The notes under the pieces were generated by a model, which searched no databases, was not told the origin of the DNA, and saw nothing but the letters and a program-made list of their open reading frames with translations. Shown here piece by piece: positions 1-35,054 of a stretch of 64,000 nt of DNA. Source of the stretch: Leptolyngbya sp. FACHB-261 (GTDB taxonomy: Bacteria; Cyanobacteriota; Cyanobacteriia; FACHB-261); NCBI RefSeq assembly GCF_014696065.1, contig NZ_JACJPL010000013.1:1-64000 (forward strand). The letters are read 5' to 3'. Both the position numbers and the translations under genes were made by a program. The first letter of the stretch is position 1, and each line of letters starts with the position of its first letter.

Positions 1-2
1 TC

Positions 3-1340: not shown

Positions 1341-1587
1341 CGCCCAGCTCCTCTAAGCGAGCTTCGTACTCGCCGCCTTCGAGGTAATCGCGCCACTCAT
1401 GAGGCGTGGCTGGGGTGAAAAGACCGCTTAAACCGGGCCTGACCACAAACAGCGCTTCGTTGCCCACAGCTGCGGTTTGTTGCCAGCCGGGGGGCAGGGT
1501 TGCCCCCAAGGTTGCGTTGAACAACGGGTGCCCTGGCAGGATCAGCACGCCTCTAGCCACCTCCAGCTGCAGCCGGTGTGTTGCCAT
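1321..1587 (-). CDS. Small hypothetical protein of the accessory cluster
   Basis: 88 residues from the ATG at 1587 (MATHRLQLEV). An in-frame ATG at 1608 would add seven residues and lengthen the overlap with the upstream gene; neither start has a clear ribosome site, and the shorter form is chosen because it overlaps less. The N-terminal half reads as a small beta-rich domain (GVLILPGHPLFNATLGATLP) and the C-terminus is acidic (YEARLEELGDDLPDG). No family recognised. It overlaps both neighbours. Confidence 0.6.
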   Translation of the reverse strand: MATHRLQLEVARGVLILPGHPLFNATLGATLPPGWQQTAAVGNEALFVVRPGLSGLFTPATPHEWRDYLEGGEYEARLEELGDDLPDG

Positions 1588-2227
1588 AGAGCAACGGCTG
1601 GGTGGCATTGAACCACTCGCCAGTGGTCGGCGGGTTATCGGAGTCGTAGAAGCTGCTGAACACAGAGCCGGTGTCTAGGCGAAGCGAGATCCGGCCTGGC
1701 TGGGGGAAGCGAGCACCTCTCACACAGCGGTTGCGTTCAGCGGCTGTGGTGACTGTGCTGGGCAGCTTCAGCCCTAGCTCATCGTTGTACTGGTCGAAGT
1801 CAGCTGAGTTCATCGGCCAGCAGTACAAAACCCCATCCACCTCTACCACAGCAGTTACGGTCTTGCCCGAGCTGCGGATGGCGACGCTGTTACCTGCTTT
1901 GGCGAGCCGCCATCCGGCAGAGCGAGCCGTACCCAGCTTGTTGTAAGCGCAGTAGGTGCTGACACTACCTTGAGCAGCAGCCACGGCTCCCGTAGTTAAC
2001 CGCTTGCTGACCCGAGGCGGTTTGGGAGCGTTGGCACCGACCACTTTCGGTTGCGCGGTCGCGGCTAATTGCGCTTCTGCAATGTGCCCTAACTGAGCCG
2101 TTAAGTCTGCAGGGCTGATGCCCGATAGTGCTGCTAAATCTTTGGTCGTGAAAACATAACACAGGTTTGCGTTAACCAGCACACCCGTAACCTGGTCGCG
2201 CTTCTTTCCTCTTTGTGTGGGAGCCAT
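1553..2227 (-). CDS. Hypothetical protein of the accessory cluster (224 aa)
   Basis: 224 residues. The ATG at 2227 has an AGGAGA ribosome site about nine bases upstream. Residues 25-50 (TTKDLAALSGISPADLTAQL) look like a small helical domain. A Pro/Ala linker follows, then a probably beta-rich domain with GKTVTAVVEVDGVLYCWP, and a glycine-ended C-terminus. No catalytic motif is seen. It lies upstream of and overlaps the 88-residue gene, so genes from 2227 down to 517 look like one transcript. A structural or tail-associated role is possible from context only. Confidence 0.7.
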   Translation of the reverse strand: MAPTQRGKKRDQVTGVLVNANLCYVFTTKDLAALSGISPADLTAQLGHIAEAQLAATAQPKVVGANAPKPPRVSKRLTTGAVAAAQGSVSTYCAYNKLGTARSAGWRLAKAGNSVAIRSSGKTVTAVVEVDGVLYCWPMNSADFDQYNDELGLKLPSTVTTAAERNRCVRGARFPQPGRISLRLDTGSVFSSFYDSDNPPTTGEWFNATQPLLYGNTPAAAGGG

Positions 2228-3015: not shown

Positions 3016-3021
3016 CCAGGC

Positions 3022-4569: not shown

Positions 4570-6854
4570 TAGCGCGATCCTCCGCTCGGCGTCTCATCCG
4601 CTGGCGGTTTATCGCTAGTGTTGCCAATTTCCTTGATCTGCGGTCGGCGCTCGTAATTACGACCGTAGGGGTGCTGTGTATCGGTGATGCCTGAGGTCGT
4701 GGTGAAGCCGGTTTCTGCTTGCTCCAGAAAGGTGCTGAATTTGGATTTTGCCCCGTCATCATCCGACTTGGGCTCAGTGTCTGAGAACTTGACCGCTCGC
4801 TTCAAGATGTCGAGGATTTGCGCCCCCATCGGTTGTTTGGGATCTAGCTTCTGCCAGAAGGCGGCTCTGATAATTGCAGCCGCTTGTACCAAATCAAGCA
4901 AATCATCTTTGAGTGTGCGTTCCTGCTTCAGGTGAAAGGCTTTGATTTTCTGCTTAGATTCCTTCAGAATCTTGGCGAGGTCGTTCTTATTCAGATCATT
5001 GGCATCGACCGCTGGAACTGTGAAGGTTAACGGGATTTCTGTTTGTTTATCCTCACCCTCATAACCGAGATATTCAGAGTTTGCCCGAGTGTACAGTAGG
5101 GCTTGGGCTGAGGTTTGAGCCACGGCACCCGTTTGGATCAAGTTGCGCAAGCCTAAGTTGGTATGCACTTCGCTGTTCGCCTGTAATTGAATCAATAGAG
5201 CAATGATTTCGGTGAGCGCTTCAGCGATGTTGGGAATAATCACCTTTGTTGGCTGATTTCCCTCTTTCACATAGTCAGCATCCTCAATCTCGATCTTGGT
5301 TTGGAAGCGCCCAATAACAGCATCAAATTGCTCAATCTGCCAGGCCAGGAGTTCTGCTAAGCTGGGCAGCTTTTTAGTATTAGTTGGGCTGTATTTTCCC
5401 CAGATGCCATCAGTTTTATCGTCCTCTTTATCGAGCAACGTTTCGGGTACCTCTGCCGGGAAAACGCCATAGCCTGCACGATGATAGGGAGCTGCAGCTA
5501 AGTTCTTGAGGTACTCCAACAGGTTATGCGTCTCAACCTCGTTGATTTTCTCCTCACCCTTTTCCTCGGTGTACTGAACCTCTGCGGCTGTTTTTAGCTC
5601 AGCCTCAAAGTTTTTCTTCAGCTTAAGTTGGTCTTCCGTTCCCCAACTATCACCCCCCAATACTTTGTAAATGCGCTCGATTCTACAGCCCAGTTTGCGC
5701 AGCTCCAAAATTTGCGCAAAGTTCAAAGCAGCAGAAGTATCTGTTCCTTTGATGATTTTGACGGTCTGTTCCTCTGTCTCGAATTCAGCGCCTTTGCAGG
5801 CCTTAAAGACCGTTACTTTGAGGTCTGAAACGTCCATACCGCCTCCTACGCCTGCTCTGGCTGCGGGGATTGTGAATGAGAACGCATAGCTAGTCTTTCC
5901 GGTTTTCGCGATAGCTACAGCTGCGGTGTTACCGGTGGTGGTGCGAACTGAAGATATTGACAACGTGGGGACTGGCCCTGGATCGCCATCCTTGCCATCT
6001 TTGCCATCCCGCCCGTTCCTCGCAGGCTTGGCATCTCTGCCAGGTCTGCCGCTAATGCCTACGCCATCCTTGCCGTTCTTACCTGGCTTGCCGTCCTTAC
6101 CATCACGCGCCGGTTTCGCGTCACGACCGTCTTTGCCATCCCGCCCATTACTCGCAGGCTTCGCGTCGCGCCCGTTCCTGCCATCCCGCCCGTTTCTTGC
6201 AGGCTTCGCGTCGCGCCCATTGCGGCCATTGGTGCCGTTCCGACCATCGCGGCCATTTCTACCGTCACGGCCTCTACCACTGCCTCTAAGCTTTGAAAGC
6301 GCTTTCAAAATCTCTGCAATCGCTTTCAAAATTTCAGCGACTCGCCGAATTAATCCATTGATTTCTATTTTTAGATTCAGGGCTAGTGCTAGCGCTCTTG
6401 AAGCTTTGGCGTCTACTTCATTGATGCGGCCAATCAACTTCTGCACTAAAGTCGCTAAATCCCTTAAATCTCGCACCAAGCGAGCCACATCACCCTGCAA
6501 ACCTTTGATGTCACCCTCTAAACGATCCACCCTTGATTGCAGCTTAAACAGGATGCCAAGTATCCTGCTAATTTCGCGCTCTAGCCCAGCTACCCGCTCC
6601 TCTAGAGCTGTAACCCTAGCAGGCAGAGACAGCAAAGCAGCAATCAGATTAAACAGCTCAGACAATCGCCTTAATGCTTGCTCTGCAACACTCAACGCTT
6701 GCTCTGCTAAAGCCTTTGCAAGCTGAGCCAAAGCCTTTGCAGCTTCTGCCAGAGTAATTGCCTTACGGATATCAGGATAAAGCTCAGCCTTAGCTCTGGC
6801 AACGGCTTTGGCGATGATGCGTTCCTCGTCGATTGGCTCGCAGCAACTGGGCAT
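4569..6854 (-). CDS. Coiled-coil and collagen-like fibre protein
   Basis: 761 residues. Residues about 10-190 are alanine/leucine-rich heptads (a long trimer-type coiled coil). Residues about 194-294 are Gly-X-Y triplets (GRDGRNG, GKDGKPG) interrupted four times by AKPA blocks. Residues about 295-340 read SISSVRTTTGNTAAVAIAKT, a capping sequence of the kind found after collagen stretches in phage tail fibres. The remaining about 420 residues are an unrecognised helical domain. Coiled coil, triple helix and C-terminal domain together predict a trimeric elongated fibre. It is coupled to both neighbours by TAATG overlaps. No signal peptide, so export by the general pathway is not indicated; a phage-type particle or intracellular assembly is more consistent. 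Confidence 0.85.
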   Translation of the reverse strand: MPSCCEPIDEERIIAKAVARAKAELYPDIRKAITLAEAAKALAQLAKALAEQALSVAEQALRRLSELFNLIAALLSLPARVTALEERVAGLEREISRILGILFKLQSRVDRLEGDIKGLQGDVARLVRDLRDLATLVQKLIGRINEVDAKASRALALALNLKIEINGLIRRVAEILKAIAEILKALSKLRGSGRGRDGRNGRDGRNGTNGRNGRDAKPARNGRDGRNGRDAKPASNGRDGKDGRDAKPARDGKDGKPGKNGKDGVGISGRPGRDAKPARNGRDGKDGKDGDPGPVPTLSISSVRTTTGNTAAVAIAKTGKTSYAFSFTIPAARAGVGGGMDVSDLKVTVFKACKGAEFETEEQTVKIIKGTDTSAALNFAQILELRKLGCRIERIYKVLGGDSWGTEDQLKLKKNFEAELKTAAEVQYTEEKGEEKINEVETHNLLEYLKNLAAAPYHRAGYGVFPAEVPETLLDKEDDKTDGIWGKYSPTNTKKLPSLAELLAWQIEQFDAVIGRFQTKIEIEDADYVKEGNQPTKVIIPNIAEALTEIIALLIQLQANSEVHTNLGLRNLIQTGAVAQTSAQALLYTRANSEYLGYEGEDKQTEIPLTFTVPAVDANDLNKNDLAKILKESKQKIKAFHLKQERTLKDDLLDLVQAAAIIRAAFWQKLDPKQPMGAQILDILKRAVKFSDTEPKSDDDGAKSKFSTFLEQAETGFTTTSGITDTQHPYGRNYERRPQIKEIGNTSDKPPADETPSGGSR

Positions 6855-7402
6855 TATTTACACCTCTTACAGCAATATCCGGGATAGTAAGGGGATGGGC
6901 ATTTGACACAACCCTCCGGGCAATCGTCATCACAAGTGCCTTCAGCCGTAGGGCAAGTGTCGTAGTAGTCTGAACTCCACACGATGCCGTTTTTATCTCG
7001 AATATGCAAACGGCACTGATAAACATCTGGATCGTCATTCGGATCCATCGGCAAGACCTTACAGGATTGCGGGTTATTGTCGTTAGCATTACCAGCAAAA
7101 AAGTCGCTTGGTCCATCTTTGCCGGTGTAGTAACAGCCCCACTCTCGACCACTAATGCCTTCTAATACTAGTTTGATGATGCGTACCGGACCTCGGATAT
7201 TAATCCGGGCTGCATCACCATACTGATGCTCTCGATTCAGACAGACAATCTTATAACGAACATCCTCCTTCAATCCTTTCTCTAGAAGTTTGCGTTCTGT
7301 ATCCCAACTCACAGGAGTAGGGGAAATCTCAAGCTTTACCTTAGCGCCCGTTGGCAAATTCACCGTAACTTTTGCCCTCTCTTTCCCGGCACAAATCGCC
7401 AT
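6854..7402 (-). CDS. Cys-rich C-terminus protein of the fibre operon
   Basis: 182 residues. Residues 1-110 look beta-rich (KVTVNLPTGAKVKLEI). The last about 35 residues hold ten cysteines (TCDDDCPEGCVKC, YCCKRCK), which suggests metal binding or a disulfide knot. Its stop and the start of the collagen-like gene overlap as TAATG (6852-6856). It lies 3 bases after the LamG-like gene. No family recognised; its place between a LamG-type domain and a fibre protein suggests an accessory or cap protein of the same structure. Confidence 0.7.
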   Translation of the reverse strand: MAICAGKERAKVTVNLPTGAKVKLEISPTPVSWDTERKLLEKGLKEDVRYKIVCLNREHQYGDAARINIRGPVRIIKLVLEGISGREWGCYYTGKDGPSDFFAGNANDNNPQSCKVLPMDPNDDPDVYQCRLHIRDKNGIVWSSDYYDTCPTAEGTCDDDCPEGCVKCPSPYYPGYCCKRCK

Positions 7403-7405
7403 CGA

Positions 7406-8203
7406 TTAAAGCCCTTTGCCTGCTTTGTAGTGTGCATTGATTCGATTAGCTGGTAGAGCCGTGCTGTAGATCGCGACTTCATCAATTACAGCCTTGAGGT
7501 GGCGCACGCCTGGCCCTGCTCCAATCAAAATCGGGCCAGTAGGCGGGATGTAACGCAAAGTTCTTTTGAAGACACATCTCCCATCCAAGTAGAGAAAGAA
7601 GTCTTCAAATTGTCGAGTAATCACGACATGATGCTTTGTTTGGCCTAGCGGTTGATAGGTAGGCAGCCAGTCCACATACTCGGAAATGCCTGTGAAATAA
7701 TCACCAGCCTGGTCATAGTTGCTGCCATTGCCAACACCAAAACCATAACCATCGATTCTCGCGCCCAGATGCACGATTGAGCCCTGAACGCTGGGGGCTT
7801 TAAGTTGTACCCAGGCCTCTATCGTTGCATCCTCACGGTTGTAAAAGCGTGGCACAACGATTCTTGAATCCACACCATTAAAAGAGGCTGCGCCATCGTC
7901 ATCCGTGTCTAGTAAGCCAGGTACTCCTAGCGTGACGTTCTCATAGGCTCCGTGCCGGTCGTAGCCAGAACTATCCAGCGCTACCATTCCATCTGTTTCA
8001 CTCAGGCGAAAGTAATAGTCGGGATAATCGAGCAAAACTTGTGCTTTATAGTCTTGCCTAATGGCTTCAAAATCAACACCCCCTCCACTCCCACCGAGGA
8101 ACTCCTTACGGATGTGATGGAGGACGCCTGTTGCTTCATCTTCAATGGGAATCAAATCTCCAGCCGATGCTTTCTCTTTAGGTGGCAACTCATGAACCTG
8201 CAT
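7406..8203 (-). CDS. LamG/concanavalin-like protein, tail-fibre type
   Basis: 265 residues. The first about 40 residues (LPPKEKASAGDLIPIEDEAT) resemble the attachment leaders of phage tail proteins. Residues about 55-262 form a LamG_3-like jelly roll: YYFRLSETDGMVALDSSG, then AASFNGVDSRIVVP, TIEAWVQLKAP, FFLYLDGRCVF and the closing strand IDEVAIYSTALPANRINAHY. Such domains bind carbohydrate or surface ligands. The gene is tightly packed with the Cys-rich and collagen-like genes (3 bases) and follows the two paralogues after 10 bases. Receptor or surface binding is inferred from domain type and context. Confidence 0.8.
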   Translation of the reverse strand: MQVHELPPKEKASAGDLIPIEDEATGVLHHIRKEFLGGSGGGVDFEAIRQDYKAQVLLDYPDYYFRLSETDGMVALDSSGYDRHGAYENVTLGVPGLLDTDDDGAASFNGVDSRIVVPRFYNREDATIEAWVQLKAPSVQGSIVHLGARIDGYGFGVGNGSNYDQAGDYFTGISEYVDWLPTYQPLGQTKHHVVITRQFEDFFLYLDGRCVFKRTLRYIPPTGPILIGAGPGVRHLKAVIDEVAIYSTALPANRINAHYKAGKGL

Positions 8204-8213
8204 TTGCCCACCT

Positions 8214-8579
8214 CTAGTTCGCGTAGGTGTCGGGCGACATCATGGGAACGCTGGTCTCTTTCAGCAAGCGCACCTCGATATCGTGGCGGCTGTAGACCCG
8301 GCTGTTCTCCGAGACAATCGAATAGTTAAAAGTGGGGTCATGCACAACCACCACATTTCTCGTCGCTGGGTCGATTGCCCGGCTAGCCTCGCTAAATTCC
8401 ACCAAGCCTAAAAGCACCAGTGCAACAAACAATTCTTCAGCGGTGTCTGTTGCGCCTGGCGTGTAGGTATAACCCGCAGCTGCAAGCTTTGTTTGCAAGT
8501 CTGCTTTGGCGATTGTGAATGCGTTATTAGTCTGAGTGAAACCTGCACCAAAGAACTCAGTGACTGTTTTCTCCGCCAT
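8214..8579 (-). CDS. Small protein, paralogue of its upstream neighbour
   Basis: 121 residues. The first about 60 residues (EFFGAGFTQTNNAFTIAKAD, then GATDTAEELFVALVLLGL) match the neighbouring gene almost position by position, while the C-termini differ. No family recognised. The shared N-terminal block may be an assembly or docking domain with variable C-terminal parts. The gene sits 8 bases after its paralogue and 10 bases before the LamG-like gene, so it belongs to the same transcript. Confidence 0.7.
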   Translation of the reverse strand: MAEKTVTEFFGAGFTQTNNAFTIAKADLQTKLAAAGYTYTPGATDTAEELFVALVLLGLVEFSEASRAIDPATRNVVVVHDPTFNYSIVSENSRVYSRHDIEVRLLKETSVPMMSPDTYAN

Positions 8580-8587
8580 GATTGCCC

Positions 8588-8974
8588 CTATTTGAAAAGC
8601 TCGGGTGATAGGTGCTCAACCGTAGAAGGCAACAGGAGGTTAAGGATAAGCGTATGCATAGAGTAAGGCACTTTTTTCTCAATCGCCACAGTATAGGCCC
8701 AGTAAAACCCTTGGATTTTTGACCAGTTCTTCTGATTTGCGAAGGTGAGAGGCTCGCCTAACTCATTGATGATGGGCTCGCCTGACTCGCTGGTCAGATG
8801 TCCCTCTTGATAGGTAAGAAAACGCAGCAGCAGAGCGGTAAGCAACTGCTCTGCTGTGTTGTGGCCTGTAGGGGTAAAGCCGACGTTAACTAGATTTGCT
8901 TTTTGAACAGTAAAGCTATTTGCATCTTGGCTGAAGCTAGATCCAAACAGCTCGGAGTATGTGAAACGAGCCAT
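8588..8974 (-). CDS. Small protein, first gene of the fibre operon, paralogue of the next
   Basis: 128 residues from the ATG at 8974 (MARFTYSELFG). This start is chosen because it aligns with MAEKTVTEFFG of the paralogue; a TTG at 8986 would add four residues. The N-terminal half (SSFSQDANSFTVQKANL, GHNTAEQLLTALLL) is the block shared with the next gene; the C-terminal half is unique and ends with a hydrophobic stretch (MHTLILNLLLPS). Upstream 8975-9111 is non-coding and must hold the promoter of the operon. No family recognised. Confidence 0.7.
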   Translation of the reverse strand: MARFTYSELFGSSFSQDANSFTVQKANLVNVGFTPTGHNTAEQLLTALLLRFLTYQEGHLTSESGEPIINELGEPLTFANQKNWSKIQGFYWAYTVAIEKKVPYSMHTLILNLLLPSTVEHLSPELFK

Positions 8975-9111
8975 ATGCGTTTCCAAATGCCCTTAGGGTA
9001 GCCCAGTTGAGCTGTGTAAACCTAATTGCTGCATTCATCAATTGACTTGAAGGTGATGGAGTTTTCTCTTGATGAAAGTGATTAGCTCTTATTCTCTCTC
9101 GCATTCGTGCT

Positions 9112-9831
9112 CTATGGCCTCCAAGACCAATTGGATCTGTAAACTAAATTTACGCCTGAAACTTCTTTCCATGCCCTAGGCTCCCACATTAATTTCTTTT
9201 TATTCTTCGTCTTACTATATTTAAAGCCTTCATCTAATGAATCAAATACCTCTTTCGTAATGTATGTATGGTATGGGCTGTTTCGAATACCACTCAGTTT
9301 AGCAGCAACGTTTGGAGCACGTCCTACCCACACTAAATCATTGTTGTCTTGAATACCACTTCGAACTACTAAAACCTTACTTGTGTCTATCCCAACACAT
9401 TGAGCGAGTTTAAACGTCCCTCTGCTAAGGCTAGAATATTTAGCCTCAAGTTTAGGTTTAATGATGTTCAAAAAGGCATAGTTGATGTTGAACGCGCACT
9501 TTACAGCTGAAAAATTTTTAGAGCGGCCTAGGAAAACTCCCATAACTCGATCGCCATCAAAGCTACGGATGCTACCACCTCGTGCTCTGATGATTCTCGA
9601 TGTACACCTTAGAAAGCTCTTAAATACCTTAGCTGATACTCGACGATCTTGCTGCATTGCCAATTCAGTTGAATCTGCGAGATCTGCATAAAGCATCGTT
9701 GCATTGAGTCTGACAGCACCACCTGTTAAAGTAACATTTTTAGTCCTAGGGACAACTATACCACCACGGATATTCCATTCTTGGTTGAGGGTGATATTAA
9801 CATCTAAGGCTAGATCATCTATCAGTGCCAC
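9112..9831 (-). CDS. pycC: Pycsar-type nucleotide cyclase (class III cyclase domain)
   Basis: 239 residues with one cyclase homology domain. Asp50 in MLYADLADSTEL and Asp94 in FDGDRVMGVF are the two metal-binding positions, and VGRAPNVAAKLS (Asn174, Lys178) is the transition-state segment, with Lys where many adenylate cyclases have Arg. The protein has no sensor or membrane domain, and its partner is a cNMP-binding/TIR protein encoded 29 bases upstream. This is the layout of Pycsar defence, in which the cyclase makes cCMP or cUMP on phage infection. Which nucleotide this enzyme makes cannot be read from the sequence. The start is GTG at 9831 with AAGGTG upstream; the region is AT-richer than the genes around it. 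Confidence 0.85.
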   Translation of the reverse strand: MALIDDLALDVNITLNQEWNIRGGIVVPRTKNVTLTGGAVRLNATMLYADLADSTELAMQQDRRVSAKVFKSFLRCTSRIIRARGGSIRSFDGDRVMGVFLGRSKNFSAVKCAFNINYAFLNIIKPKLEAKYSSLSRGTFKLAQCVGIDTSKVLVVRSGIQDNNDLVWVGRAPNVAAKLSGIRNSPYHTYITKEVFDSLDEGFKYSKTKNKKKLMWEPRAWKEVSGVNLVYRSNWSWRP

Positions 9832-9860: not shown

Positions 9861-10769
9861 TTACTTAGAGCCATGTATAGCTACAACCTTCCGAATCTCG
9901 TTACAGATTGGTGCTACACGAGCTTGTAGCGTATTTAAATCGCCTGGAGCATAACTCAATATTGTGATACCTAGAAGATCAGAAGGAATCTTTATATCTA
10001 CGCCGCGAGCTTTAACTATGATTGTTCTCGCACGTCCTAAAGCACCCATAAATAGACCAAGCTCAAATACTACGTTATCGCGTGGAGCTGCTCTTTCTAG
10101 GCCGCGACTGACTATAGCATCGTCATGACCTAACACAAGAACTGCAAAATCTGAAACTTCTACAATCCTTGTGAGATCCTCAATTGTGGAACGAGAGGCT
10201 TGAAAGATGCCATCTGTCCAAACGTTAGTTAACAGATTGTCGTGGGATAAGCCAGTTTGAATTTCTCGTGCAATGTTAAGTGTTTCTGCCGACGAGCCAA
10301 TAAAGATGATTGGTTGTGGATTAGGTTGGGTAACATATTTACTACGCTCGCGTAGCCGCTCAGCTAGCTCTAATGCAAGCCGTCGCCAAAGTTTAGGAAA
10401 GCTGTTGGCCAAAGTAGTGAAAGCAGGCTCAGTGATTTTTGCAACAACTGTCTGCTCGACTGCTCGATTGGTTGCGCTTCGCCTCGCTGTTGGGTCAATT
10501 AAAGCCATCTCTCCGATGTGACACCCTGAGCCTCTACAAGCGACCAGACGTCCATTGATAAGAACACACACCTTTCCCGTGAGTATGAGATATATCTCGG
10601 AATCAATATCTCCCTGCGTTATAATATCTTGGCCGATTTCAAATTGTTGCAACTCACTCACAGAAGAAAGGACTATTGCAAGTGATTCATCATCCTGTAC
10701 AATGTTCTGTTTGCAAATTGCTGTTATTAATCGACGGGTACCATCTTCGCCCTTGAAACGGCTTAGCAC
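9861..10769 (-). CDS. pycTIR: Pycsar effector: cyclic-nucleotide-binding domain plus TIR-like NADase domain
   Basis: 302 residues. Residues about 40-145 form a CRP-type cNMP-binding domain with phosphate-binding cassette GEMALIDPTARRSAT. Residues about 152-285 form the TIR-like domain of the CAP12/Pycsar family (PF10137): PIIFIGSS at the first strand, VWTDGIFQASRSTIEDL, and VVFELGLFMG with Glu236 at the expected catalytic position. Related effectors bind cCMP or cUMP and then destroy NAD, stopping cell growth. No membrane segment or DNA-binding helix-turn-helix is present, which argues against a transcription factor. The start is GTG at 10769 with AGGAG seven bases upstream. The effector precedes the cyclase in one operon. 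Confidence 0.88.
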   Translation of the reverse strand: MLSRFKGEDGTRRLITAICKQNIVQDDESLAIVLSSVSELQQFEIGQDIITQGDIDSEIYLILTGKVCVLINGRLVACRGSGCHIGEMALIDPTARRSATNRAVEQTVVAKITEPAFTTLANSFPKLWRRLALELAERLRERSKYVTQPNPQPIIFIGSSAETLNIAREIQTGLSHDNLLTNVWTDGIFQASRSTIEDLTRIVEVSDFAVLVLGHDDAIVSRGLERAAPRDNVVFELGLFMGALGRARTIIVKARGVDIKIPSDLLGITILSYAPGDLNTLQARVAPICNEIRKVVAIHGSK

Positions 10770-11062: not shown

Positions 11063-12310
11063 TTAAAAATTCTGGATTATAAAGCTAGCTAGCTTATCAT
11101 ACTGTGCATCCATTTTCTTCATCAGAGTAGTCTGATCTCGCGCCCATGTTCTACTCTTAACATTATCGCGTGTTGGTTTTGCTTGTGGCAGGTATTTGAT
11201 CGGGATGTTCTGAACAATGCTATCGGGTGCCATTACATTCAAGTCTTCGATACTTGCAACAGGTTCTGGGCCGATAAAATCTGGAATAGCAGAATATGCT
11301 TTAATGCTTTTTAATTTGGGGATCAACTCATTATTAATAGAAAACCTCACTTTCGCAAATTGAGCTTGATCTGCACCTGTTTTTGAGACCTGTTTTGAAC
11401 CAACTTTTTTTCTAGTGTCAAATCCATTAAAAATCCAACCGCCAAATTTCGGCTGTCCCTTGTGAGGTATTATTTGGTCGTACGAATTGGATTGAAGGTA
11501 GCGAGCTTTACCTTGCTCCCAGTCTTCTATAAATCTAGGCAAAACCTGTCCAATTAGACCTACACAGTATGCAGAAAATAAATCAGGCGTACACGGAACA
11601 AGAAAATAATCTGAGGAGTACAAAGCCGCTCTGACAAGAGTGTTAAAGGACGGCGGTAGATCTATCAGCACGAAATCGTACTGTTTGCCAAATTCTCTCT
11701 CTACTGAGTTGATTAAGCTTGATGGCATTAAGAAACGATATAAACCTGCTCCTCCAATTACATCAGTCCCCACGTTCAAAATGTCAGAAAAATTATTAAG
11801 CCAGAAATCACCAGGTACAATATCAAGTTTCCCGTTTAAAGGACCACGCTTGGGTTTAGCAATATGTGGCTTTCCCGGAGCATTTTGCTGAATGTATGGC
11901 AAAGCAAAAGCTCGTATTGTCTTGCCGTAAGGTAACTCCTGAGAACTCTCTAGATACTGTGAAAACTCCTCATCTCCCAATGCAGCAATAGATAAATTGC
12001 ACTGAGGATCGAAGTCAATCACTAATACTGCCTTATCTTGCTCTGCTAATGATGTCGCTAAATTCCAAAGCGTCGTCGTTTTGCCAACGCCACCTTTATT
12101 ATTGAATAGCGCGATCACTTTTGCCATTGAACCTTCCTTTTTTCTAAGCCAGTGCAGAATTTGCCTGCACTGGAACACTGGCCCTGACTGTAATTGCCTT
12201 ACAGGCATTGGAAAATCAGCATATCTCGTTCTCCAATTTCCTACAGCAGCAGGACTAACACTTGCTAGTTGGGCTATTTCATATAGCCCAATCAAATCGT
12301 CATTATGCAT
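11063..12310 (-). CDS. ParA-family ATPase with N-terminal helix-turn-helix
   Basis: 415 residues. Residues about 8-58 (LYEIAQLASVSPAAVGNWRT) are a MerR/AlpA-like helix-turn-helix. From residue 62 an ordinary ParA sequence begins (MAKVIALFNNKGGVGKTTT), with the deviant Walker A motif, VLVIDFDPQCNLS and FVLIDLPPSFN (Walker B). An HTH-ParA fusion is typical of plasmid partition ATPases that repress their own promoter. No parB-like gene follows. Two 17-bp palindromes lie 48-97 bases upstream of the ATG and are the likely operators or centromere. Possible roles are maintenance of the mobile element or positioning of another cargo; the first is favoured by context. Confidence 0.85.
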   Translation of the reverse strand: MHNDDLIGLYEIAQLASVSPAAVGNWRTRYADFPMPVRQLQSGPVFQCRQILHWLRKKEGSMAKVIALFNNKGGVGKTTTLWNLATSLAEQDKAVLVIDFDPQCNLSIAALGDEEFSQYLESSQELPYGKTIRAFALPYIQQNAPGKPHIAKPKRGPLNGKLDIVPGDFWLNNFSDILNVGTDVIGGAGLYRFLMPSSLINSVEREFGKQYDFVLIDLPPSFNTLVRAALYSSDYFLVPCTPDLFSAYCVGLIGQVLPRFIEDWEQGKARYLQSNSYDQIIPHKGQPKFGGWIFNGFDTRKKVGSKQVSKTGADQAQFAKVRFSINNELIPKLKSIKAYSAIPDFIGPEPVASIEDLNVMAPDSIVQNIPIKYLPQAKPTRDNVKSRTWARDQTTLMKKMDAQYDKLASFIIQNF

Positions 12311-12962: not shown

Positions 12963-15311
12963 ATGAGCAAAAAAGACCTGAGTGAAGCCGATATCTGCGA
13001 TCGCTACATTACTCCTGCACTCTATGAGGCAGGTTGGAAAAAGAGCCAGGTTCGCCGAGAGTATTACTTCACAGACGGTCAAATGATTGTTCGAGGTCAG
13101 ATGACAGTCCGGGGAGACAGGAAGTTCGCGGACTATCTGCTGTTCTACCAATCGAACCAGCCGATTGCAGTGATTGAGGCGAAGGACAATAACCGTAGCG
13201 TTGGAGCAGGGATCCAGCAAGCTTTGCGCTATGCGGCTGCTCTACAGGTTCCGTTTGTCTTTTCTTCTAATGGAGATGCCTTTTTATTTCATGACAGAAG
13301 TGGCACTTATAGCCAGGTTGAGCAGCAGATCGGGTTGGATGCGTTTCCATCGCCTGATGAGCTGTGGGAGCGATATAAGCAGTGGAAAAACCTGCAAAAC
13401 GCTAGCGAAGATTTGCTGACTTCTTCCTATTTCATTGAGATTGGGGGGAAGGAACCTCGCTACTATCAGCAGCTTGCAGTCAATCGCACCGTTGAGGCGA
13501 TCGCTCGTGGTCAAAAGCGGTGTTTGCTGGTGATGGCAACTGGAGCAGGCAAAACTTACACGGTTTTCAACATTATCTGGCGATTGTGGAAGACGAAGGT
13601 TTCGAGGCGGATTTTATTCCTTGCGGATCGCAATGCCCTGGTGGATCAGACGATCGTGAATGACTTTCGTCCCTTTGGGGAGGTAATGACCAAGCTTGAT
13701 CGCAGGCTGGTGGATGAGACTGGGCGGATCAATACCTCTTACGAGATCTATCTGGGGCTGTATCAGTCGATTATCGGCAATGAGGAGCGAGACAACCTTT
13801 ATGAAAAGTTCGATCGCGATTTCTTCGATCTGGTGGTGATTGACGAGTGTCACCGGGGCAGTGCGGCAGATGATTCTAATTGGCGGCAGGTGCTTGATTA
13901 CTTTTCAGATGCGATTCAGGTGGGCTTGACCGCCACGCCCAAAGAAACCAAGTACGTCTCGAATATTGACTACTTCGGCGTGCCTATCTTCAAGTACTCT
14001 CTGAAACAGGGGATTGAAGACGGCTTTCTTGCTCCGTTTCGCCGGATTCAAGTTGACCTAGATAAAGACCTAGAAGGCTGGACTCCAGAATCAGGAGAGT
14101 ACGATGACCAGGGTCAACTGATTGAGGAGCGAGACTACAACCTGAGGGACTACGATCGCACGGTTGTGTTTGACCAACGAACTCAACGAGTGGCGGAGTA
14201 TGTCACCCAGTTTCTCCATGATGGCGATCCAATGCGAAAAACAATTGTTTTTTGTGAGGATATTGACCACGCAGAACGGATGAGGGGAGCGATCGCCAAC
14301 GTCACACTCAACCGGGAATTGATCCAAAAAGATCACCGTTATGTCATGCGAATTACGGGCGATGAGAAGGAGGGCAAAGCACAACTCGACAACTTCATCA
14401 ACCCTAAAGAAACGTATCCGGTGATTGCTACAACCTCTAAGCTGATGACAACGGGGGTGGATGCTCAGACCTGTCATGTGATTGTGTTAGATCAGCGCAT
14501 CCAGTCGATGACGGAGTTTAAGCAGATTATCGGTCGGGGCACTCGTCTTCGCCCGGATTACGACAAAAATTTCTTCACGATTATTGATTTTCGAGGGGCA
14601 ACTCAGCTTTTTGAAGACCAGGATTGGGATGGTCCGCCAATGCAGGACGAGGATTTTGGCAAGGGAGGCCAATCATCTGATCCCGATCGAGAAGGGAAAA
14701 CGGATGGGGGAGATGAAGAAGACGGAGGAGATAAGGGAGAGCGAATTAAGTATCAGGTGGGTCGTCAGGAGTTCCAGGTTGCGAAGGAGCGAGTAAGCTA
14801 TTACGACAAGGATGGCAAACTCACAACCGAATCGCTGAAGGACTATACCCGCCGCACGGTGAATGAGACATATCAGTCTCTAGATAGCTTCCTTAATAAG
14901 TGGAATAAAGCCGATCGCAAGCAAGCGATTCTCGATGAGTTGAAAGCGCATGGAGTGATTTTAGAAGCTTTGGAGGGCATGGTTGGTAAGGATTATGACC
15001 TCTTCGACTTAATCTGCCATGTGGCGTTTGATCGCCCACCTCTGACCCGCAAGGAACGGGCTGAAAAGGTTCGTAAACAGGATATGTTTGCGAAGTACGG
15101 TGAAATGGCTCGTGCAGTCTTAGTTGCTTTGCTGGATAAGTACGCGGATCAGGGGGTTGTGTCGATCGAAGACAAAACCGTTTTGCAGCTTGACCCGTTT
15201 GCGAAACTGGGAACTCCGGTGGAGTTAGTTAAAAGTTTTGGCGGCAAGAAGCAGTATCAAGCCGCGATTCAAGAGCTAGAGCAACTGCTGTACGAAGACC
15301 AGGGCGCTTGA
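12963..15311 (+). CDS. hsdR: Type I restriction enzyme, R (restriction and translocation) subunit
   Basis: 782 residues, EcoEI-like size. Residues about 1-90 hold the PD-(D/E)xK nuclease core (DRKFADYLLFY, then AVIEAKDNN). The superfamily 2 helicase motor follows: Walker A MATGAGKTYT near residue 192, DECHRG near residue 294, LTATPKE, and motif VI IIGRGTRLRP. The acidic linker GKTDGGDEEDGGDKGE precedes the C-terminal domain that docks on the methylase. First gene of the hsdR-hsdM-micropeptide-hsdS operon, 56 bases before hsdM. No strong ribosome site at the chosen ATG. HIP1 octamers lie inside it at 12997, 13497 and 14289. Confidence 0.95.
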   Translation: MSKKDLSEADICDRYITPALYEAGWKKSQVRREYYFTDGQMIVRGQMTVRGDRKFADYLLFYQSNQPIAVIEAKDNNRSVGAGIQQALRYAAALQVPFVFSSNGDAFLFHDRSGTYSQVEQQIGLDAFPSPDELWERYKQWKNLQNASEDLLTSSYFIEIGGKEPRYYQQLAVNRTVEAIARGQKRCLLVMATGAGKTYTVFNIIWRLWKTKVSRRILFLADRNALVDQTIVNDFRPFGEVMTKLDRRLVDETGRINTSYEIYLGLYQSIIGNEERDNLYEKFDRDFFDLVVIDECHRGSAADDSNWRQVLDYFSDAIQVGLTATPKETKYVSNIDYFGVPIFKYSLKQGIEDGFLAPFRRIQVDLDKDLEGWTPESGEYDDQGQLIEERDYNLRDYDRTVVFDQRTQRVAEYVTQFLHDGDPMRKTIVFCEDIDHAERMRGAIANVTLNRELIQKDHRYVMRITGDEKEGKAQLDNFINPKETYPVIATTSKLMTTGVDAQTCHVIVLDQRIQSMTEFKQIIGRGTRLRPDYDKNFFTIIDFRGATQLFEDQDWDGPPMQDEDFGKGGQSSDPDREGKTDGGDEEDGGDKGERIKYQVGRQEFQVAKERVSYYDKDGKLTTESLKDYTRRTVNETYQSLDSFLNKWNKADRKQAILDELKAHGVILEALEGMVGKDYDLFDLICHVAFDRPPLTRKERAEKVRKQDMFAKYGEMARAVLVALLDKYADQGVVSIEDKTVLQLDPFAKLGTPVELVKSFGGKKQYQAAIQELEQLLYEDQGA

Positions 15312-15367: not shown

Positions 15368-16840
15368 ATGTCGCTGAGTGCCACCATCAAATCTATCCAA
15401 GACATCATGCGAAAAGATGTAGGGGTAGATGGCGATGCCCAGCGCATTGGACAGTTGGGCTGGATGCTGTTTTACAAAATCTTCAGCGACCAGGACACGG
15501 AGTTAGAGATCAACCAGGATGACTATGATTCTCCGATTCCGTCGGATTTGCGGTGGGATGAGTGGGCAGACAGCACCAAGCTGGGTAAACGTGCGCCAAC
15601 TGGAGATGACCTGCTGAAGCTGATCGATGGGCAGTTATTCCCCCAGCTGAAGGCACTCGATGGCAAGGACTTGGAGGGTATTGCTCAGGAGCGGGCGTTA
15701 TTGCTGCGGAGCGTATTTGAGGATGCCTACAACTACATGAAGTCGGGCACGCTGCTGCGACAGGTAGTAGACAAGATTAACGAGAGCATTGACTTTAACC
15801 AGTCGAAAACTCGCAATCTGTTTGGCGATCTCTACGAACAGATTCTTAAAGACCTCCAGAGTGCCGGAAATGCAGGTGAGTTTTATACACCTCGTGCCGT
15901 GACTCAGTTTGCGGTGGACATGGTGAATCCGCAACTGGGCGAGAAGGTGCTTGACCCGGCCTGTGGCACGGGAGGCTTTTTGACTTGTGCTTACGAACAT
16001 TTGAAGCAGCAGGCAAAATCGACGAAGGAGTTGGAACTGGCAAAGCGAAGCGTTTTTGGTGTGGAGAAGAAGCAACTGCCACACCTGCTTTGTGTCACCA
16101 ACATGATGGTGCATGGCATTGAGGTGCCGACGAACGTGCGCCACGATAATACGCTCCGCAAGCCGCTGAGAGACTATGGGCGCGAGGATCAGGTGGAGGT
16201 TGTGGTGACGAACCCTCCCTTTGGTGGCATGGAGGAGGATGGAATTGAGCGGGGCTTTCCGACTGAGTTTCAGACGCGGGAAACGGCAGACCTGTTTCTA
16301 GTGCTGGTGATGGAGCTGCTGAAGGATAGCGGCAGAGCGGCAATCGTCCTTCCCGATGGCACGTTGTTTGGCGAGGGCATCAAGACTCGCGTTAAAGAAA
16401 AGCTGCTGCGGAACTGCAATCTACATACGATCGTCCGACTGCCGAATGGTGTGTTTAGCCCCTACACCAGCATTCGCACCAACATCCTGTTTTTCACGAA
16501 GGGCAAGCCCACGACTGAGGTCTGGTATTACGAGCATCCCTACCCGCCAGGGGCAAAGTCTTACAACAAGACAAAGCCGATGCGGATTGAGGAGTTTGAG
16601 ACGGAAAAAGCCTGGTGGAACAACCGCGAGGAAACCGAGTATGCCTGGAAGGTGTCGGTGGAAACGATCGCCGCTAATGGATACAACCTGGACATCAAGA
16701 ACCCAAATGCGGTAGGAGCTAGCCACGAAGACCCGCTGTTGCTGCTGGCGCAATATCAGGAAGCAGCAGCAACAGCAGACCAAGCGCGACTGGCATTAAA
16801 GACAGCATTGCAAGCGTGTTTAGAGCAATCAGCAGGATAA
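15368..16840 (+). CDS. hsdM: Type I DNA methyltransferase, M subunit
   Basis: 490 residues, normal length. An N-terminal helical domain (LGWMLFYKIFSDQD) is followed by the N6-adenine methyltransferase fold: motif I LDPACGTGGFL near residue 196 binds S-adenosylmethionine and motif IV VTNPPFGG near residue 280 is the catalytic NPPF. With HsdS it methylates the recognition site; with HsdR it forms the restriction complex. The stop codon at 16838-16840 overlaps the ribosome site of the micropeptide gene that follows, so translation of the two is probably linked. Confidence 0.96.
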   Translation: MSLSATIKSIQDIMRKDVGVDGDAQRIGQLGWMLFYKIFSDQDTELEINQDDYDSPIPSDLRWDEWADSTKLGKRAPTGDDLLKLIDGQLFPQLKALDGKDLEGIAQERALLLRSVFEDAYNYMKSGTLLRQVVDKINESIDFNQSKTRNLFGDLYEQILKDLQSAGNAGEFYTPRAVTQFAVDMVNPQLGEKVLDPACGTGGFLTCAYEHLKQQAKSTKELELAKRSVFGVEKKQLPHLLCVTNMMVHGIEVPTNVRHDNTLRKPLRDYGREDQVEVVVTNPPFGGMEEDGIERGFPTEFQTRETADLFLVLVMELLKDSGRAAIVLPDGTLFGEGIKTRVKEKLLRNCNLHTIVRLPNGVFSPYTSIRTNILFFTKGKPTTEVWYYEHPYPPGAKSYNKTKPMRIEEFETEKAWWNNREETEYAWKVSVETIAANGYNLDIKNPNAVGASHEDPLLLLAQYQEAAATADQARLALKTALQACLEQSAG

Positions 16841-16962: not shown

Positions 16963-18672
16963 ATGGATCTCCAAACCTTTCTAGCAAACTTCGATACGAT
17001 CGCTGAAGCTCCCAACGGTATCCCAAAACTGCGATCTCTCATCCTCGATCTGGCAGTGAGGGGAAAGTTAGCCCCTCAAAATTTAGAAGATGAACCTTTA
17101 GAAAAAATATTGAAGCAGGTCAAATTAAAAAAAGAGAAATTAGTTGAAGGGAAAAAGCTCAGAAGGGATGTGCAGTTCCCTGACATTAAGGATACTGAGG
17201 TCAGTTTTGAGATTCCATCGAGCTGGACTTGGGTTAGGCTGCAGGATATTGCTTTAAAGATAACTGATGGTGAGCATCTCTCTCCTAATAAAGCATCTTC
17301 TGGCGTGCCCTTATTAACAGCAAAAAATGTTCTTGAGCAGGGTTTATCCTTCAATAATATTCAGTATATCTCCGCCAAAGATGCTCAGAAATCCAGGTTG
17401 CGTTGTGATCCAGAATTTGGTGATGTATTAATTTGTAGCCGAGGCACAATAGGGCGAACTGCCATAGTTGACACCATAGATCTCTTTTGCTTGATGGGAA
17501 GTGTAATACTTATTAAGCCTTCAGAGGCAATTCTTGGTGAATATTTAAAGCATTACTTGTCTAAGGAATCCACGCGAACTCTACTTCAAAGAATGTCTGG
17601 AGCTACGGCCGTTAAAGCTTTATACTTGAAGGATGTTATTAGTTGCCCTATTCCCCTTCCGTCTATAGCTGAGCAGAAGCGAATTATTAAGAAGGTAGAT
17701 GAGTTGATGGCGTTGTGCGATCGCCTTCAAGCTGCCAAGCAAACGCGAGACAACCTGCGGCAAAAACTGAGGGGAAGTGCGATTAATTCTCTCATGAAGG
17801 CCGAAACGGATGAGGAGTTGAAGAAGGGATGGGCGATTGTTCGCGATAACTGGCAGACTCTCAGCCAAAAGCCCGAAGATGTGGATGATTTGCGGCGATC
17901 AGTTTTGCAATTGGCTATGCGGGGAAAACTTGTTTCTCAAAGTATAGATGATGAAAATATAGATGCTCTGCTTATAAAAGCAGAACAGTATCAACCAAAG
18001 TATAAGCCTAGTGAAAAAGACTATGTAGCAGACACTATTAATGATAGCTACTTTACTTTCTATGAACTCCCCAAAAGCTGGAAATGGCTAAGATTAAGAG
18101 AGTTATCTAGTTCTATGGCAAATGGTTTGTACAAGCCTGCCAGCTTCTATTCAGATGAAGGTATAGCAAGTATTAGAATGTTCAATATTCAAAATGGTCA
18201 TTTGCTTCTTGATCAGTTAAAGAGAATTAATGTCACCAATGAAGAGTATTCTACTTATCAATTAGCTTATGGGGATATAGTTGTTAACAGAGTTAATAGT
18301 AGAGAATTAGTTGGTAAGTCTGCGATTGTAGATGTAGTTAACGAGCCTATGGTTTATGAGGCAATGAACATCCGTGTCAGGCTTATTCCTAGCGTTACGT
18401 TTCCTCACTATATCAATTTGGTTTTATTAAATGGAAGTTCTAGAAAACTATTCTTCAATGTGGCAAAACAAGCTTCTGGCCAAGCTTCTGTTAGTCAACC
18501 TCAAGTTGGTAGCCTTCCGATTCCTTTTCCACCACTTGCTGAACAGAAACGGATTGTCGCCAAAGTGGATGAACTGATGCAGATGTGTGATCGGCTTGAA
18601 GAAAGTTTGTGCCAGAGTCAGCAACGAGCAGAAGCCTTAGCTGCATCCGCTATAAGCCAACTAGCAATTTGA
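16963..18672 (+). CDS. hsdS: Type I restriction system specificity subunit
   Basis: 569 residues with two target-recognition domains. The first covers about residues 80-235 (SWTWVRLQDIALKITDGEHL), the second about 360-525 (SWKWLRLRELSSSMANGLYK). Each is followed by the same conserved helix (AEQKRIIKKVDELMALCDRL and AEQKRIVAKVDELMQMCDRL) and preceded by LDLAVRGKLA / LQLAMRGKLV, giving the usual two-fold pseudo-symmetry. The recognised sequence should be bipartite; it cannot be deduced here. The recognition domains are visibly AT-richer than the conserved parts, as expected when they are exchanged between systems. Only five bases separate it from the micropeptide. Confidence 0.95.
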   Translation: MDLQTFLANFDTIAEAPNGIPKLRSLILDLAVRGKLAPQNLEDEPLEKILKQVKLKKEKLVEGKKLRRDVQFPDIKDTEVSFEIPSSWTWVRLQDIALKITDGEHLSPNKASSGVPLLTAKNVLEQGLSFNNIQYISAKDAQKSRLRCDPEFGDVLICSRGTIGRTAIVDTIDLFCLMGSVILIKPSEAILGEYLKHYLSKESTRTLLQRMSGATAVKALYLKDVISCPIPLPSIAEQKRIIKKVDELMALCDRLQAAKQTRDNLRQKLRGSAINSLMKAETDEELKKGWAIVRDNWQTLSQKPEDVDDLRRSVLQLAMRGKLVSQSIDDENIDALLIKAEQYQPKYKPSEKDYVADTINDSYFTFYELPKSWKWLRLRELSSSMANGLYKPASFYSDEGIASIRMFNIQNGHLLLDQLKRINVTNEEYSTYQLAYGDIVVNRVNSRELVGKSAIVDVVNEPMVYEAMNIRVRLIPSVTFPHYINLVLLNGSSRKLFFNVAKQASGQASVSQPQVGSLPIPFPPLAEQKRIVAKVDELMQMCDRLEESLCQSQQRAEALAASAISQLAI

Positions 18673-18950: not shown

Positions 18951-21641
18951 TCAGTTGCTGACCTTTAGATTCTTCTGCGCTTGCCTCTCCAAATACCCGC
19001 AGGAAATCCAGTATTCCACCCCAAGCCCCCAGCTCTCAGCTCGCACCAGTGCTTCATATTCCCCTTGCTCGTTTCGCCTGGTGTCTAGTACGGTCAGGTC
19101 TTTACCTCGACAGGTGACAGCAATTGCTCCAGCAGGCGCATTGCGTTTGTAGCGACACACATCACCTTTGCGCAGCGCTACGGCTCTACGACGTTTGGTC
19201 ATGGGTAGAGGTGGCTGATCACGCTGATCAGAGTTGGCGAAAGTGAGATCAGCAGCCTCTTGTGACAGTTGCTGATCGTTAAGCTGCTCGCTCAACTCAT
19301 TTTTGGGCGTTTTATTGGAGCAATTGGAGAAAGTTGGAGAAACAGTTGGAGAAACTTCTCCTTGCCCTGTCTGCGTTTCAGCCGTTTCTCCAACTGGTTG
19401 GGCCTTTTGCGGTGGGTGGGTGAGATCAGCGGTACGAAGATCAGTGAACACGGGTGTACTGATATGACAGTTTGCATTAGGCTGATCGCTGATCTGAGGA
19501 TCACTAGAGGAAAAAATGTTGTTTTTTGTTGGAGCAACGCCTGAATCGCTTGCTGTGTCTGTCTTTGCTTTCTCCAACAATTCTCCAATTTCTCCAACTG
19601 GCCTTGTAGCCGTGCGGGTTTGAGGCCCCTCTTTCTCCAACGATTCTCCAACTAGGCGACTGCGGTGATAGGTTGCTGGCGTTCCTCTACGACCTCCCTG
19701 CTTGCTGATTAGGTCGTCAGCTTGCAGCCGTCCTAAAACTGTTGCAGCCGATTTGATCGGCAACTGGCAGGCGATGGCGATCTGCTCCACAGTGCCCGAG
19801 CCAAACTCGTTGAGGTAATCCAGAACGCGCTCGCGCTGGTCCCGGTTGACAGCAGGCTTCCACTGCCCGAGCAACCGCCAAGTTAGCGTGTCTGGATTCA
19901 GCCGGATTTGTAAGTCGAGTTTGCCGTAGCCGTGTTCAACGAACAGTCGATGAGTGTCGCCCTCAGTGCCTAGAATCCAGGTCCCTCGACAAGTGGCCCG
20001 AATGGCGCTGCTACCTCGAATTGTCTCGAACACATCCAGCTCGCTCGCGTTGCTGACGTTCACCTTGGCAGTGTGGTGAATTAGCAGGATGGTCGCTGGT
20101 AGGTAGCTCGCCAACTCTTGTAGAGGTTCCAACGCTCGCGACATCTCTGCTGAGGACTCGGAGATTGAGTCGTCGCGAACGCGGCTAAGCGTGTCAAGGA
20201 CGATCAGACGGGGCTGAATTTCCTCAGCCAGCTCAATTAGATAAGGCAACTGGCTGAGCTTGAATTTGTTGAGCCAGTAAATAGGTAAGCCCGCTCCCCA
20301 TCCCTGGGCGAGCTCGCGCTCCTTGATTTTGATCTCTGAGTCCTCAAGGTTGACGTACAGAACAGGGCCTTGAGTCGTGGGTCGATCGAGAAACTTCTGA
20401 CCTGTGCCCACAGCATGAGCCAAGGTCATGCCCATCAGCGATTTACCACCTCTAGGAGCGGTGGCCAATAGAAACAGCTCGTTAGAGGGCAGCAGATCGG
20501 GAACCAGCCAGTCAACATAGTTTGCTGCCCTAGCTAGCAACTGGTCATTGGTCACCAACCAAGCTCTCAGCGGATTCTGCACTGGTGTAGGGCTAGCTGA
20601 AGCTGAGGTTGCCTTGGGCTCTGGCTGGACACACTGCTCAGCTGCTTCCTGAAACTCCCCAACCCCAAAGCCAGCATTGAGCGCATTGCTAACGTCCCAG
20701 CCTTGAACGTGTGAGAACTTCTCGCGCCAAGGCACCTGCGCTATCCAACCCCGCTCACCTAAAGCCAAAGCAACTTTCTTTGCTCCTTCCTCGCCTGGTT
20801 GCAGTCCAGTCTTAGGATGGGGTGCGTCGTTGCGGTCGTAGAACGTTACCACTCGGCCTGGCAATCGCTCTAGTTCCTCGGTTGGCGGCACCGTTCCACA
20901 GCCACTAGTGAAGGTAGCTACAGCAACTGACTCACCAGCGATGTGCTCTCGCACTGCCCAACCCAGCAGGTAGGCATCCCACTCACCTTCACAGAGCCAA
21001 GTCACAGTTGCAGCCGTAGGCTTCCAGGTGAAGTAGACCACCGGTGGCACCCCGTATTGACTCCAGGGCATGTACTCCGGCGGTTGCTCTGATTCAGGCA
21101 GCCAAGGGGCGAGCCGCGACTTCTGATAATAAGCAGTGCCATCGCGATCAGCTGGGATGTGAAGCGCAATCGCCCAGAGCATTGGGCCATCTCGACCGCA
21201 GCGCTTCCGCACTAGGCCTAGACGGTAAGCCTTGATCATCTCGACCGTAATACCCCTGCGCTCTAGCCAAGTCCGAGCTGCTTCAGCAACTAGGCCCTGA
21301 CCTAACAACCGCTGCTGCGCTTCCTTCACTTGTTGGGGAGCAATCGTAACCCGCTTAGCTGGTGCAGATGCGGTTATGTGATGAGTCAGAGCTGTGGGAA
21401 TAGCTCGGTCTTTAGGAGATCCTAGCGATTCTCGAATGTGCTCTGTTGCGCAGCCTTTGAAGCATTTGTAGGCTCCTGTGGATGTTTCTACTCGCAAGCT
21501 TGGCCGCTTAGGCTTGTGATCAGATTGGCAGCTTGGACAAGGCACGTTCACCCAACCATTTCGGCTCTGGGGTTTGGGCAGTTCAAGATGTTTGCGAATG
21601 TCGAATTGCTCCCCTGTTGGGGAGGAAGAAAGATAAGTCAT
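18951..21641 (-). CDS. Primase-helicase of a mobile element (CHC2 zinc finger, TOPRIM, RepA-like ATPase)
   Basis: 896 residues from the ATG at 21641, which has AGGG five bases upstream; a GTG two codons earlier is less likely. The CHC2-type zinc finger (CPSCQSDHK ... YKCFKGC) lies in about residues 30-70. A TOPRIM primase region follows (WLCEGEWDAYLLG, VVTFYDRND). The RepA/AAA_25 helicase domain has Walker A APRGGKSLMG near residue 395 and Walker B LIVLDTLSRV. Then comes a winged helix (VEQIAIACQLPIKSAATVLG) and a long low-complexity C-terminal tail. Such proteins start replication of plasmids and phage-like integrative elements. It lies directly downstream of the stem-loop-rich region, the probable origin or control region. 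Confidence 0.9.
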   Translation of the reverse strand: MTYLSSSPTGEQFDIRKHLELPKPQSRNGWVNVPCPSCQSDHKPKRPSLRVETSTGAYKCFKGCATEHIRESLGSPKDRAIPTALTHHITASAPAKRVTIAPQQVKEAQQRLLGQGLVAEAARTWLERRGITVEMIKAYRLGLVRKRCGRDGPMLWAIALHIPADRDGTAYYQKSRLAPWLPESEQPPEYMPWSQYGVPPVVYFTWKPTAATVTWLCEGEWDAYLLGWAVREHIAGESVAVATFTSGCGTVPPTEELERLPGRVVTFYDRNDAPHPKTGLQPGEEGAKKVALALGERGWIAQVPWREKFSHVQGWDVSNALNAGFGVGEFQEAAEQCVQPEPKATSASASPTPVQNPLRAWLVTNDQLLARAANYVDWLVPDLLPSNELFLLATAPRGGKSLMGMTLAHAVGTGQKFLDRPTTQGPVLYVNLEDSEIKIKERELAQGWGAGLPIYWLNKFKLSQLPYLIELAEEIQPRLIVLDTLSRVRDDSISESSAEMSRALEPLQELASYLPATILLIHHTAKVNVSNASELDVFETIRGSSAIRATCRGTWILGTEGDTHRLFVEHGYGKLDLQIRLNPDTLTWRLLGQWKPAVNRDQRERVLDYLNEFGSGTVEQIAIACQLPIKSAATVLGRLQADDLISKQGGRRGTPATYHRSRLVGESLEKEGPQTRTATRPVGEIGELLEKAKTDTASDSGVAPTKNNIFSSSDPQISDQPNANCHISTPVFTDLRTADLTHPPQKAQPVGETAETQTGQGEVSPTVSPTFSNCSNKTPKNELSEQLNDQQLSQEAADLTFANSDQRDQPPLPMTKRRRAVALRKGDVCRYKRNAPAGAIAVTCRGKDLTVLDTRRNEQGEYEALVRAESWGLGVEYWISCGYLERQAQKNLKVSN

Positions 21642-21665
21642 AATCACCCTAAGAATGTCTGTACT

Positions 21666-23077: not shown

Positions 23078-23462
23078 GCAGCAAACCGCCTGATGAGCTG
23101 CTCTGACCCAGCAGCGAAACTTTCAGCCCCTCTGCTGGAAGTCGCGGATCGGGTTCAAACTGAGGCCTTCTATTAAGTCGCTACCCAGCAACCCTGTAAC
23201 AGGCACAGATTTGGTATGAACTTGTAACCAATCAAATCTCCCCGAGCCTCCGAACCGGAAACGCAGTCTAAAAATTCATCCGTGGATACACAGAAACCTA
23301 TTCACAGATTAAATCATAAAACTATTAATTGAAGTATTAACATGCGCAAAAACACTGAAACTCTAAAGCTATATTTCAAGGCTTATTGGTATGAAACTGG
23401 TATGAGTTCAAGGAGGAAATACGTTGAAAGCCTTGTCCGTAGGTGTTTCCAGGCGTTTATGG
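23078..23462. other. Non-coding end of the accessory element
   Basis: No gene is supported. A perfect ribosome site (AAGGAGG near 23415) precedes a 15-codon TTG frame that ends within the tRNA remnant; this may be the broken end of a gene. Short inverted repeats are present (for example AGATTTG near 23210 and its complement), of the kind found near integrase sites, but none is decisive. Confidence 0.35.
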
Positions 23463-23509
23463 CCACGTTGACATCGTGGGGGTCACTGGTTCGAGTCCAG
23501 TTGTGTCCA
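23463..23509 (+). other. 3' fragment of tRNA-Val(GAC): attachment-site scar of the integrated element
   Basis: The fragment has the exact geometry of the 3' part of a tRNA: anticodon stem CCACG/CGTGG around loop TTGACAT (anticodon GAC), a 5-nt variable loop, T arm ACTGG-TTCGAGT-CCAGT, the 3' acceptor strand TGTGTCC and discriminator A. The matching acceptor strand GGACACA and a D arm are absent upstream. Elements that integrate in tRNA genes leave this scar on the far side, with the intact tRNA at the other end. The element should therefore lie to the left, and the intact tRNA-Val with the integrase outside the window. Confidence 0.85.
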
Positions 23510-35029: not shown

Positions 35030-35054
35030 GCCGGTTTGAACGGGAGTAGTTGAT

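Follow-up and report, generated by a model that had tools for sequence, protein, structure and literature searches.

The left part of the window, the 64,000-nucleotide stretch analysed here (C13:1-64000, starting at the contig end), almost certainly belongs to an integrative element (a genomic island) that is at least 33.4 kb long and was inserted into the single tRNA-Val(GAC) gene of the genome by a tyrosine integrase. We directly observe an exact repeat of the 3′ part of the tRNA, its orientation, an adjacent integrase, putative arm repeats at both ends, contigs that abut, and relatives built in the same way. During integration, the tyrosine integrase would carry out recombination between a tRNA-like core in the attP of the element and the anticodon arm of tRNA-Val(GAC) in the chromosome. 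The tRNA 3′ part carried by the element, with a terminator behind it, would join the chromosomal 5′ part and thus restore a working tRNA beside the integrase, and the original chromosomal 3′ part would be displaced to the far end, where it forms the 47-nt fragment. The element may still be active today. This mechanism is already known and has reached the textbooks; the present island is a new instance of it. Islander-type tRNA-gene genomic islands, among which an anticodon-centred 'A' crossover is described, likewise combine an intact tDNA, an integrase, cargo, a same-orientation 3′ tDNA fragment and an anticodon sub-site (PMC4383910). The mechanism is identical, whereas the host lineage and the cargo are particular to the present element.

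The right end of the element is marked by the fragment, which corresponds to a true end piece of the tRNA (positions 28-74 of 74) rather than an internal one (Table 1). Its anticodon stem CCACG/CGTGG encloses a 7-nt loop, TTGACAT, with the anticodon GAC, and is followed by a 5-nt variable loop (GGGTC), a T stem (ACTGG/CCAGT) enclosing TTCGAGT, and the acceptor 3′ strand TGTGTCC with the discriminator A. Neither a D arm nor a matching 5′ acceptor strand precedes it, confirming the original prediction of a piece that folds as the 3′ part of a tRNA. ARAGORN does not call the fragment as a tRNA, and the Rfam tRNA model scores it at 25.0 bits against a gathering score of 29, the proper 5′ half being absent. 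The runner-up ungapped 47-mer in the window matches tRNA-Val(GAC) at only 26 of 47 positions, compared with 47 of 47 for the fragment; judged from the sequence, the match is not a chance one. The folding energy of the fragment is unremarkable (z -0.67), and the evidence is therefore sequence identity, not stability. An antisense match to Rfam HPnc0260 on the minus strand, below threshold and overlapping the tRNA piece, was set aside.

Table 1 Features of the element and of its insertion site. Positions refer to the window unless a contig or locus is named.
Feature	Position	Strand	Basis
Intact tRNA-Val(GAC)	C10:9959-10032	-	ARAGORN and fragment match
Tyrosine integrase ORF	L019 8626-9807 (C10)	-	Phage_integrase and Arm-DNA-bind_2 domains
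TIR-nSTAND1-WD40 gene, 3′ end (gene begins on C10, L019 ~3908 down to 1)	1..317	+	Repeat array, open frame
Small cargo ORFs; one weak PHROG match (unknown function)	517..2227	-	
Collagen-like protein (weak phage tail-fibre matches), LamG-domain protein, further ORFs	3022..8986	-	
Pycsar cyclase PycC	9112..9831	-	PADLOC E 1.4e-88
Pycsar TIR effector with cyclic-nucleotide-binding domain (PycTIR)	9861..10769	-	
ParA-like ATPase	11063..12310	-	
Type I restriction subunit HsdR	12963..15311	+	
Type I methyltransferase HsdM	15368..16840	+	
Type I specificity subunit HsdS	16963..18672	+	
Primase-helicase-like replication protein	18951..21647	-	AAA_25; PHROG DNA primase/helicase
Putative integrase arm-type site TTGGTATGAA, right end	23211..23220	+	
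Putative integrase arm-type sites, right end: TTGGTATGAA then CTGGTATGA	23386..23405	+	
Displaced tRNA-Val(GAC) 3′ fragment (tRNA positions 28-74); element right end, attR core	23463..23509	+	Sequence identity
Anticodon loop TTGACAT within 5-bp stem CCACG/CGTGG; inferred crossover (overlap) region	23468..23474	+	Sequence; 5′ identity limits in relatives and phage attP

A search of the whole genome with the fragment (6.95 Mb, 36 contigs) returned a single strong match at C10:9958-10005 on the minus strand, where identity extends one flanking T further, to window position 23510, giving 48 nt at 100% (E 5e-18). This match is the 3′ end of an intact tRNA-Val(GAC), as had been predicted, and all 47 positions of the fragment are found in it. 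The GAC anticodon occurs in just one of the 43 tRNAs called by ARAGORN in the tRNA loci of this genome, which also contains only one such fragment. A tyrosine integrase was likewise expected beside the intact tRNA, and an ORF with the corresponding domains begins 151 nt beyond the tRNA 3′ end. It retains the invariant residues R245, K276/K279, R347, H370 and Y379; the HxxR histidine is replaced by tyrosine, as it is in most of the aligned relatives. At E ≤ 1e-10, this integrase has no second match in the genome. A strong terminator hairpin stands behind the restored tRNA, followed by three tandem copies of TTGGTATG and then the integrase ORF, and nothing comparable to the hairpin lies behind the fragment.

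The same repeat recurs in the two ends of the element. TTGGTATG is present in five copies within the 2 x 260 nt of the element ends, three after the tRNA and two before the fragment, where a first-order Markov model gives an expectation of 0.008 copies. From their sequence and placement, the TTGGTATG(AA) repeats probably serve as arm-type sites of the integrase. Two of three related elements also carry short repeats at both ends, of different sequence and recognised by eye (GGTACGGAATTGGTACGG-like in G046 and TTGGGGGA-like in G012).

The intact tRNA and integrase had been placed to the left of the window, and they lie on a separate contig, C10, since base 1 of the window is also base 1 of its contig. 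Read from the tRNA, C10 carries the integrase, small ORFs, a gene for a 416-aa protein, a gene for a pentapeptide-repeat protein and a TIR-nSTAND1-WD40 gene, which is still open at C10:1, where the contig stops within the repeats. C13 opens with the terminal part of a WD40 gene, in open frame, and a search of the whole genome finds the WD40 repeat unit at these two contig ends only. The assembly therefore appears to have broken within the array, so that C10 and C13 would abut at a junction where the repeats are left unclosed. Reversing C10 and joining it to C13 gives, in order, the intact tRNA on the plus strand, the integrase, the cargo and the fragment on the plus strand; given this join, the fragment lies downstream of the tRNA and in the tRNA's own orientation. 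The element is then at least 9,958 + 23,462 = 33,420 bases long, not counting the missing repeats. Together with the unassembled repeat gap, this falls inside the Islander range of 2-200 kb. Base composition is uninformative, the GC fraction being barely different between the element (0.49-0.50) and its flanks (0.51-0.53). The WD40 units (L019 1-3908 and window 1-317) are 87-95% identical at the DNA level, suggesting that the sensor array was recently expanded or homogenised.

Were the fragment an old remnant of some other integration, the right end of the C10 island would lie elsewhere and the link between C10 and C13 would be a coincidence between two similar repeat genes. The two contigs are indeed not joined in the assembly, and tRNA-Val(GAC), which 16 further genomes of the class carry at 100% identity, is so conserved that an old fragment could seem fresh; since the gene is identical across much of the class, the identity of the fragment cannot date the insertion. 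Against a remnant, however, stand the restriction of the WD40 unit to two contig ends, the continuation of the open frame on C13, arm repeats of one sequence at both ends, and the presence of one such fragment and one such integrase in the genome. We consider a remnant very improbable.

Integration of this one element into tRNA-Val(GAC) is also consistent with the anatomy of related elements. Integrases 44-53% identical to that of C10 follow closely behind tRNA-Val(GAC), Val(TAC), Pro(GGG), Pro(CGG) and Gly(CCC). Where sufficient DNA was read, three genomes of the class combine a full-length tRNA and a related integrase with a 3′ fragment displaced in the same orientation: at tRNA-Val(GAC) in G012 (fragment 49 kb away), at tRNA-Val(TAC) in G046 (15 kb) and at tRNA-Pro(GGG) in G024 (27 kb). 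In G017, 12.2 kb separates the two pieces of tRNA-Val(GAC), and the recombinase, a more distant one, has the opposite orientation; in G002 and G007 no displaced fragment was found within the stretches read. Among viruses, the tRNA 3′ half lies 126-169 nt upstream of a related integrase in the Planktothrix phage PaV-LD and in four viral IMG/VR contigs, two of them near-identical, and always starts at tRNA position 30.

In every related element and phage attP-like site, the 5′ limit of identity falls in the anticodon stem or loop, and the crossover is therefore placed in the anticodon arm. The related elements and phage sites thus lend support to the predicted crossover in the anticodon region, a position also taken by 2083 of the 3919 islands in the Islander survey (PMC4383910). 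The exact crossover base is indistinct here, since identity begins at tRNA position 28; from the sequence, it probably lies in the anticodon loop. A partial tRNA sequence can have other origins, a CRISPR spacer being one example (PMC9897764), and the fragment might in principle be a degraded tRNA gene or a partial duplication that owes nothing to site-specific recombination. Such an origin is barely credible, as the break falls in the same tRNA sub-site as in the related elements and phage attP-like sites, and the fragment is paired with an intact tRNA and an integrase in the required orientation.

Two further genomes carry related integrases in other arrangements. In G058, one contig has an intact tRNA-Val with no integrase (L170 4094-4167), and another has a tRNA-Val 3′ half followed by a related integrase (C248 17098-17142, L169), the form expected of an attP. 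This suggests an unintegrated or tandem element, and a tandem array or a mixed bin may also explain it; a search for an end overlap that would make C248 circular found none. In G022, contig C60 (L175) holds two full tRNA-Val copies, 2985-3056 and 9669-9740, which are 6.7 kb apart and share identical upstream sequence, and a related integrase adjoins one of them. The viral contigs L182, L183 and L185 have tRNA-Val halves upstream of the integrase with a T arm unlike that of the window genome (TCTCCCGTTCGAGTCGGGA), so integration into a tRNA like the one in the window genome would leave a chimeric tRNA body.

Comparison of the flanks drew on genomes from orders other than that of the window genome. 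Among the loci scanned, which comprised the FAD gene of the left flank plus 7-10 kb downstream of it in 20 relatives from the class, together with 37 loci of named cyanobacteria, none had a tRNA-Val beside that gene. No uninterrupted site was seen in them, and the order of the flanking genes is not kept among the class relatives and named cyanobacteria compared. Everything to the right of the fragment had been taken for core chromosome, which is not established by this comparison: the amidohydrolase gene at 23729, adjoining the fragment, is present in only 4 of 59 class genomes at E ≤ 1e-60. Further right, genes for an RtcB RNA ligase and an RNA 3′-phosphate cyclase are adjacent in the window (33578-36134). 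Orthologues of both in L108, and of the cyclase in L083, lie ~8-10 kb from an orthologue of the FAD gene that flanks the element on C10, which hints weakly at an ancestral linkage of the two flanks. This proximity in Nodosilinea-type genomes, the sole linkage seen between genes of the left and right flanks, was set aside as too weak, the loci being rearranged and the tRNA-Val lying elsewhere.

The cargo on C13 includes a complete hsdRMS set of type I restriction genes and a PycC-PycTIR pair, as in known type I restriction-modification and Pycsar defence islands; here their carrier is an integrative element with defined ends, again a common situation. C10 adds the TIR-nSTAND1-WD40 gene and the pentapeptide-repeat protein, a membrane protein. 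Among the element ORFs tested, which do not cover the repeat gap, there was no match to terminase, portal or capsid, and no Pfam match to relaxase or type IV secretion; a comparison with plasmids at the DNA level gave no match. The element is most aptly described as an integrative genomic island carrying defence genes. It is possible, if short of probable, that it belongs with defective prophages or phage satellites and not with plasmid-like or mobilisable islands; this reading is compatible with integration into the tRNA as described. Its tail-fibre-like genes and primase-helicase point this way, as does the integrase, whose closest isolated relative is that of cyanophage PaV-LD (42%) and which is closer still to those of the four viral contigs (47-53%), whereas the unmatched terminase, portal and capsid speak against it and ParA suggests a plasmid-like phase.

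The genomic island also bears comparison with two kinds of known element. The integrase of PaV-LD (HQ683709) has the same domains, its identity to the C10 integrase spanning 95% of the protein, and in this phage a tRNA-Pro(GGG) 3′ half from position 30, 126 nt upstream of the integrase, is the likely attP. PaV-LD differs in being a 95-kb phage with another tRNA target and cargo unlike that of the present element. Tycheposons of Prochlorococcus and Methylophilaceae (PMC10872708) share a tRNA at the border, a tyrosine recombinase and cargo, a likeness of layout; they are described with nutrient cargo, unlike the present element.

In an isolated cyanobacterial lineage, these results define the two ends of an island with several defence systems (TIR-STAND, Pycsar and type I restriction) and name its integrase. 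With ends and integrase known, the island can be treated as one mobile unit, whose excision and att sites are testable. The results also document a family of cyanobacterial integrases that act at the anticodon arm of several tRNA genes and are shared with isolated and metagenomic phages. More speculatively, and in our estimate rather unlikely, a single integrase lineage may be common to temperate cyanophages and anti-phage islands, having moved between tRNA targets (Val, Pro, Gly) through exchange of the tRNA 3′ half in attP, with the crossover staying in the anticodon arm. If this is true, such islands could be satellites that travel with the very phages they defend against.
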